Positions 62,556 to 64,000 of a stretch of 64,000 bases of DNA are shown here, in pieces. Each line of letters starts with the position of its first letter. Positions within the stretch are counted from its first letter, which is position 1. Under the pieces are notes generated by a model. That model saw only the letters and a list, made by a program, of their open reading frames with translations, was not told where the DNA came from and searched no databases. The stretch spans positions 1 to 64,000 of the forward strand of contig NZ_FRDJ01000004.1 in assembly GCF_900143265.1 (NCBI RefSeq). The letters run 5' to 3'. Position numbers and translations under genes: made by a program. The DNA comes from Fervidobacterium gondwanense DSM 13020. Its GTDB lineage: Bacteria; Thermotogota; Thermotogae; Thermotogales; Fervidobacteriaceae.

Positions 62556-62564
62556 TGGTATAAT
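62556..62564 (+). promoter_or_regulatory. Extended -10 promoter for the ferritin-like gene
   Basis: TGGTATAAT (extended -10, TGnTATAAT) lies 132 bases before the ATG, so transcription should start near 62571 and give a leader of about 125 bases. Confidence 0.6.
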
Positions 62565-62570
62565 TTCAAG

Positions 62571-62695
62571 TGAATTGTCCCATAATACCGCCTGCTGGGG
62601 ATGGGGAAGCGTATAAGGCGGATAAGAAATACCCCAGCCTAAACTGCACTTTATTAATTTTGGTGTTTGCGTGCAGTTTAGAATGAGGTGAGCTT
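62571..62695 (+). promoter_or_regulatory. Structured 5' leader, candidate cis-regulatory RNA
   Basis: Pairings seen by eye: CCGCCT 62588-62593 with AGGCGG 62616-62621; GCTGGGG 62594-62600 with CCCCAGC 62632-62638; TAAACTGCAC 62640-62649 with GTGCAGTTTA 62671-62680. The first two pairs cross, so they make a pseudoknot or two exclusive folds. The third is a perfect 10-bp hairpin ending 4 bases before the Shine-Dalgarno AGGTGAG. I do not recognise a known riboswitch class. Regulation of the ferritin-like gene is inferred. Confidence 0.45.
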
Positions 62696-63175: not shown

Positions 63176-63196
63176 TGTTGCTAAGCACTAATAATC

Positions 63197-63221
63197 AAAA
63201 CCCGGTTCTGCACCGGGTTTT
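63197..63221 (+). terminator. Rho-independent terminator after the ferritin-like gene
   Basis: A 10-bp perfect stem AAAACCCGGT/ACCGGGTTTT with loop TCTGC, followed by TGAATTTTTC. Confidence 0.85.
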
Positions 63222-63245
63222 GAATTTTTCTATTGAGAGGAACCT

Positions 63246-64000
63246 ATGGATAGACGTTTCTTAACTTGTGTCTTTTTTATATTCTTTATCACTATCTCTC
63301 TATTCGGGATGGAGATAACGTTATCTTTTGTTGGTGACATCATGTTCCATAAACCGATAATAGATTCTGCCCTTTCCAACGGGAAATACGACTTCAAAAA
63401 CATCTTTAAATATGTGAAGACGTACATAGAAAAGACTGACCTGGCATTTTGCAACCTCGAAACCACATTAGGAGGAAAGCCATACACAGGATATCCAAGA
63501 TTCTCCTCCCCGGACGAAGTTTTAGATGCTATAAAATATGCAGGTTTTGATGTCGTTAATGTCGCTAACAACCACATGCTCGATAGAGGTGCAAGCGGGC
63601 TTATTAGAACGATAAAGAAAGTTTCTGAGAGCGGATTAACATGCGTCGGAGCTCGGTTAAATCCACTTGAGAAGGAATATACAATTGTAGACGTCAAAGA
63701 CATCAAAGTTTCTTTTGCATCCTTCACATATTCAACCAACGGCATACAACTGGACAAGGAACGTGCATATATGTTTACATACATATCCAAGGATGTAATA
63801 ATGAACATAGTACAAAGTATGAGGAAAGAATCCGACATAGTGATAGTTTATCTCCACTACGGGAATGAATATCAAACAACACCAACAAAAGAACAAAGAG
63901 AATTAGCTCATTTAGCTTTGAAAAGCGGTGCTGATTTGGTCATAGCAAGTCATCCGCATGTATTGCAAGAAATAGAACTAGTTAAAGACGGACTAAAAAC
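63246..64000 (+). CDS. CapA-family (PgsA-like) protein, cut by the window end
   Basis: Read directly: ATG 63246 with GAGAGGAACCT before it; the frame stays open to the last base (251 codons visible). Signal sequence FLTCVFFIFFITISLFG, then a metallophosphatase-like CapA domain: LSFVGDIMFHKPI, FCNLETTLGGKPY, NVANNHMLDRGASG, VIVYLHYGNEYQ and ASHPHVLQEI. CapA/PgsA proteins belong to poly-gamma-glutamate or capsule synthesis in some bacteria, but many members have unknown roles. Probably outside the cell membrane. Confidence 0.85.
   Translation, partial: MDRRFLTCVFFIFFITISLFGMEITLSFVGDIMFHKPIIDSALSNGKYDFKNIFKYVKTYIEKTDLAFCNLETTLGGKPYTGYPRFSSPDEVLDAIKYAGFDVVNVANNHMLDRGASGLIRTIKKVSESGLTCVGARLNPLEKEYTIVDVKDIKVSFASFTYSTNGIQLDKERAYMFTYISKDVIMNIVQSMRKESDIVIVYLHYGNEYQTTPTKEQRELAHLALKSGADLVIASHPHVLQEIELVKDGLK

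Follow-up and report, generated by a model that had tools for sequence, protein, structure and literature searches.

A pseudoknotted leader RNA of thermophiles, probably derived from the guide-RNA end of an IS607-family transposon

What is the folded RNA that lies between the promoter of a ferritin-like gene in Fervidobacterium gondwanense DSM 13020 and its ribosome-binding site, and where does it come from? The gene lies in the stretch of DNA that we analysed (the window: 64,000 nucleotides of contig NZ_FRDJ01000004.1), and its parts are collected in Table 1. An initial annotation, made from the sequence of the window, had described two crossing helices of 6 and 7 bp in a leader with its own extended −10 promoter; both helices (P2 and P3) and the promoter are present. 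The perfect hairpin noted beside the Shine-Dalgarno (SD) sequence also exists (P4), with 11 rather than 10 bp. The SD is separated from the ATG by 5 bases. The folding energy of the leader alone is modestly unusual (z = −2.15), which by itself is weak evidence. Beyond the ferritin-like gene, a terminator-like hairpin (window positions 63180–63230) precedes a PGA_cap-family gene at 63246.

Table 1. Features of the leader locus (window positions; R1 and R2 are the covariance models described in the text)
Feature	Position	Strand	Basis
Extended −10 promoter, TGG-TATAAT	62556–62564	+	Read in the sequence
Putative short form of the transposon-end RNA, forming the 5′ UTR as far as the SD	62571–62684	+	R1 match at 62573–62638, 80.7 bits; also matched by R2 (L015)
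Helix P1, UCCCAU (62578–62583) with AUGGGG (62601–62606), 6 bp including one U-G	62578–62606	+	Family-wide covariation of P1
Helix P2 (likely), CCGCCU (62588–62593) with AGGCGG (62616–62621), 6 bp; crosses P1 and P3	62588–62621	+	Near-invariant in 97 copies
Helix P3, GCUGGGG (62594–62600) with CCCCAGC (62632–62638), 7 bp; crosses P1 and P2	62594–62638	+	Compensatory changes at 7/7 pairs
A-rich conserved linker AUAAGAAAUA, between the 3′ strands of P2 and P3	62622–62631	+	Conserved in every aligned copy
Hairpin P4, 11 bp (62639–62649 with 62671–62681), adjoining the SD	62639–62681	+	Pairing test across copies
SD, GAGGTG; putative junction of the transposon right end (ACCAGG in long forms) with the host SD	62685–62690	+	
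Rubrerythrin-like ferritin-fold gene, 159 aa	62696–63175	+	Pfam Rubrerythrin, 1.4e-15

Architecture and distribution of the RNA family

A DNA search of the genus returned a second copy in the genome of the window and two copies in another species, all in front of different genes. Alignment of these copies revealed P1, a third helix that the initial annotation had missed; it encloses the 5′ strands of the other two helices, both of which it crosses. Our first covariance model (R1), built from four Thermotogota sequences with P3 as its sole helix and applied to Thermotogota only, found just these few strong copies in 103 genomes of that phylum. The annotation had proposed looking for the leader upstream of ferritin-like genes in relatives, where it is absent: the ferritin-ortholog loci of other Thermotogota species contain no R1 match, and the upstream sequences of the orthologs agree. 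In both the genus DNA search and the Thermotogota model search, the window copy is common only to one near-identical relative. The leaderless ortholog in genome G001 has an identical ATATGGTATAAT promoter box and SD with an unrelated short spacer between them, and other leaderless relatives likewise keep the promoter box and SD of the window.

For a wider search we built a second covariance model (R2), with P1 as the sole helix and P3 treated as plain sequence. When 84,980 species, each represented by a single genome, were scanned with a sequence pattern, 116 stretches matched, almost all of them in thermophiles that belong to several phyla. Because parts of P2 and P3 are fixed in the pattern, these counts understate the true spread. 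The family comprises hundreds of copies, 1–35 per genome, almost exclusively in thermophiles (Thermotogota, Aquificota, thermophilic Clostridia, and Thermodesulfobacteriota). Four probable chance matches (L074, on viral contigs, L085, L095, and L103) were excluded from the surveys. Occurrence on viral contigs was dismissed, as the single match lies inside a coding frame and was judged to be due to chance, and plasmid and phage records yielded zero matches. As the annotation had stated, the leader belongs to no recognised class: no Rfam 15 covariance model reached its gathering score, either in the window or, in 16 relatives, at the position of the element, and searches of the window at E values up to 10 returned nothing or chance matches. 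Term searches of the GC-IGR surveys, the 104-candidate paper, and the Aquificales ncRNA paper, in their main texts, turned up no recognisable instance of the motif.

The R2 alignment contains 100 copies with 97 distinct sequences. Among the latter, 97.9% of the cells pair, and the covariation score is 0.523, compared with 0.122 ± 0.008 for shuffled alignments and no more than 0.107 when the register is slid. The compensatory base changes that the annotation had suggested seeking occur at all 15 pairs of the two covarying helices, 8/8 in P1 and 7/7 in P3; for P3, the score is 0.209 versus 0.085 in shuffled alignments (0 of 500 shuffles). P2 is paired in 99.2% of cases among the 97 copies and shows no covariation; because its sequence is nearly invariant, the pairing is likely but unproven by covariation. 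P4 is a recurrent hairpin of varied sequence, with strong pairing in 83% of the copies versus 30% when arms are swapped between copies. Since P1 and P3 cross and both covary, the comparative evidence establishes a pseudoknot for the family; the window copy keeps the knot with a P1 of only 6 bp, weaker than the family norm.

In the window copy, zero bases separate the 5′ strands of P2 and P3, and the annotation had suggested that the two helices may be alternative folds. Connections of 0–1 nt across a 7-bp helix are normal for H-type pseudoknots. For this reason, and because compensatory changes maintain P1 as well as P3, which cross each other, alternative folds are not favoured.

Long forms at the right end of an IS607-family element

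A longer form of the RNA occurs in Thermoanaerobacter, Caldanaerobacter, Caldicoprobacter, Thermodesulfobacterium, and Hydrogenothermaceae, where its 5′ side continues through an additional hairpin into a gene. This gene encodes TnpB (TIGR01765, 4e-24; TIGR01766, 3.5e-21; guided_TnpB, 7.5e-16, below its cut-off; no match in Pfam). At one such locus (L178), tnpB is preceded by a gene for TnpA, with matches to MerR (3.2e-8, the N-terminal helix-turn-helix) and to Resolvase (2.5e-5, the serine recombinase) in a frame that is short and may be degenerate. These long forms are the right end of an IS607-family element, which combines a TnpA serine recombinase with TnpB.

Within a genome, copies resemble one another as far as ACCAGG; beyond it their sequences differ, each leading into the start of a host gene. 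At locus L147, the joined flanks of the element are intact in three relatives (182/182 nt, 98–99% identity), with GGGAGG before the ATG; the two halves overlap at this site by 4 bases of the GGGAGG, and in the carrier they lie 2.2 kb apart. This exact empty site places the element inside a Shine-Dalgarno sequence. For a second copy, L178, the joined-flank search gave no clean contiguous empty site; at further copies, left ends adjoin GGAGG. As read from the sequences, these junctions show, at the sites examined, insertion into the GG of an SD, in the orientation of the gene and without target duplication. IS607 is known to use GG targets (PMC6188088). Across the family, a same-strand gene start lies 20–70 nt downstream of 99 of 110 copies, compared with 330 of 2220 random positions (15%). 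On the left flank of L178 and other long forms, the leftover host SD, now followed by a conserved CAGTTG and an internal TATAAT-like box, may drive a short frame.

The TnpB guide RNA (right-end RNA, reRNA) of the IS607-family element ISXfa1 is ~150 nt long, extends beyond the right end of the element, and requires a pseudoknot for activity (PMC10711439). The long-form RNA occupies the same place, between tnpB and the right end, and from this position we infer that P1–P4 would be part of the mature reRNA. The loop of the 5′ hairpin reads CUUGG or CCUGG in 47 of 53 long forms, and the CCAGG end is present in 48 of 53; by sequence complementarity, a CUUGG loop could pair with the terminal CCAGG. 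The RNA model finds nothing in six Aquificota genomes (G167–G172) that encode TnpBs of the same family, several with many copies; the reRNA of these genomes may have diverged. One long form (L170, WUQU01000013.1) is located on a contig assigned to a Bathyarchaeota bin; the contig is probably bacterial and misbinned.

Short forms before host genes

The short forms, to which the window copy and many others from Aquificota and certain Clostridia belong, have no tnpA, no tnpB, and no 5′ hairpin; the CCAGG that ends nearly all long forms is kept in only 6 of 62. At the window copy, the left end is missing together with both transposon genes, neither the 5′ hairpin nor the CCAGG end can be read in the sequence, and the promoter lies directly before P1. 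−10-like boxes are enriched 3–11 nt before P1 in short forms, versus none in long forms; a box 3–20 nt before P1 is present in only 40 of 122 short forms, a count that includes three (L077, L096, and L190) which still carry long-form remains. The promoter directly before P1 in many short forms would make the knot their 5′ UTR.

The 95 downstream proteins fall into 71 families, and a metabolite-specific riboswitch was rejected on the basis of these genes. Most targets are housekeeping genes; the heat-shock genes hsp20 and htpX are also among them. The htpX leader, an example of a short form that persists in genomes without TnpB, is present in eight Aquificota species, in which the sequence of P1 has been rewritten and its pairing kept by compensatory changes. 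A 1.5-Mb Aquificota genome (G166:C1; L242, L269–L280) carries 35 short forms and TnpBs of a different subfamily; the copies read there precede rpsT, rplY, rpmF, rpsU, hfq (twice), glyA, ilvC, and others, with gene names assigned by eye from translations.

The RNA is also found in genomes devoid of its TnpB. The long-form TnpB family is missing in the RNA-positive genomes G000 (that of the window), G002, G008, G166, G135, and others, and in 45 of 85 RNA-positive Aquificota, many of which are draft assemblies. G000, like G166, carries TnpBs of other subfamilies, encoded by two genes (G000:C13:19015-20130 and G000:C1:272902-273978). Six RNA-positive genomes (G173, G113, G159, G162, G117, and G109) contain no recognised TnpB of any kind. 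As several RNA-positive genomes lack TnpB, a TnpB-dependent function of the short forms was rejected as a general rule.

Origin and function of the leader

We favour, at a probability of roughly 0.6, a model in which the leader is the 3′ domain (P1–P4) of an IS607-family TnpB reRNA that has been exapted as a cis-acting 5′ UTR. The transposon would enter the GG of a gene's SD in the orientation of that gene, as the sequences of the examined sites indicate, and its right end would then supply a structured leader together with the AGG for ribosome binding. To give the short forms, the transposase gene, tnpB, and the 5′ hairpin of the RNA would have been lost and a promoter joined almost directly to P1; the resulting transcripts probably start at the knot, as suggested by the leaderless relatives and the positions of the −10 boxes. 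Compensatory changes across the family and in the htpX leaders show that selection has kept the knot and P4 at loci in TnpB-less genomes, a claim made at the family level, as the window copy has a 6-bp P1 and one near-identical relative. Most likely, the knot and P4 form a rigid 5′-terminal fold that would protect the mRNA and leave the SD beside P4 open for 30S binding; this model needs no ligand. The short forms thus probably descend from transposon ends and would act as leaders that stabilise the mRNA and present the SD. Descent may also have run in reverse, with a transposon capturing a host leader.

The chances appear evenly balanced for a broader proposal, that the transposon targets ribosome-binding sites and carries in its guide-RNA end a portable, TnpB-independent leader, which thermophiles have repeatedly domesticated to serve housekeeping genes (those for S20, L25, Hfq, HtpX, MreB, and others) as a 5′ UTR. 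The leader would then represent a new cis-acting RNA class with a P1×P3 pseudoknot and would contribute genuinely to translation or to the stability of the mRNA.

The transposon origin also suffices to explain why copies sit at ribosome-binding sites, and a neutral relic, in which a serviceable ribosome-binding site came with the transposon end and the fold persists without function, would suit the window copy with its weak P1 and narrow distribution. We regard such a relic as rather unlikely because P1 has been rewritten with its pairing kept, including in orthologous htpX leaders and TnpB-less genomes. The invariant P2 and linker suggest recognition, and either an RNA-binding protein of the host or a TnpB from a different subfamily could bind the mRNA scaffold and regulate translation. 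Other TnpBs do occur in some RNA-positive genomes, but the six genomes with no recognised TnpB, and short forms that lack the 5′ hairpin and CCAGG end and with them the pseudoknot needed by IS607 TnpB (PMC10711439), make protein control improbable.

Explanations in which the RNA itself is the sensor or catalyst fare worse. An RNA thermosensor, in which access to the SD changes with temperature as P4 or the knot melts, is very unlikely: housekeeping genes are the majority of targets and the SD is usually outside the P4 stem, even though copies are nearly confined to thermophiles and hsp20 and htpX are among the targets. Highly improbable, too, is the metal, redox, or metabolite riboswitch of the initial annotation. 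A conserved pseudoknotted core before start codons would agree with it, but the absence of the leader at ferritin orthologs, the unrelated downstream families, and the transposon origin do not, and its tie to the diiron gene falls away. Compact crossing helices and an invariant core would befit a self-cleaving ribozyme that cuts just before P1 and frees the host mRNA from an upstream transposon transcript; the promoter directly before P1 in many short forms would yield the same 5′ end, and known ribozyme families in Rfam give no match, so that we assign very little probability to cleavage.

Several known systems resemble the leader in part. Like the reRNA or omega RNA of IS607 TnpBs such as ISXfa1 (PMC10711439), the long form lies between tnpB and the right end, has GG ends and a length of ~150 nt, and may form a loop-to-3′-end pseudoknot (CUUGG with CCAGG). 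In contrast to ISXfa1-type reRNAs, the present family, a candidate reRNA, adds a P1×P3 pseudoknot domain, and its short forms, which no longer have the 5′ hairpin, tnpB, or tnpA, would act in cis before a gene. TldRs, TnpB-derived RNA-guided transcription factors (PMC13418256), likewise reflect host or phage use of a TnpB-type system; however, TldR keeps the protein and uses its RNA as a guide in trans, whereas in the leaders the protein is gone and part of the RNA is used in cis. In IStrons (PMC4227781), part of the insertion sequence RNA also renders the insertion harmless to the host, but neither a group I intron nor splicing is seen here, and any benefit would lie in the replacement of the ribosome-binding site. 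H-type pseudoknot translational riboswitches (preQ1, SAM-II) resemble the leader in that a pseudoknot adjoins the SD, yet the present RNA has no Rfam match, no known ligand, and unrelated downstream genes. IS607, TnpB reRNA, and TnpB exaptation as TldR are thus known kinds, and use in cis as a TnpB-free leader would be new; in the main texts of the open-access papers searched, neither a preference of IS607 for SD sites nor the use of reRNA domains as host leaders was described.

The locus illustrates that a promising riboswitch candidate can turn out to have another origin, and it adds a well-defined pseudoknotted RNA of thermophiles with many natural variants for tests of structure and function. 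If our model is correct, the scaffolds of TnpB guide RNAs, relatives of the ancestors of Cas12 guide RNAs, would have been reused many times as host 5′ UTRs. This would reveal a path by which selfish guide RNAs become leader RNAs of their hosts, and a transposon that prefers Shine-Dalgarno sites.
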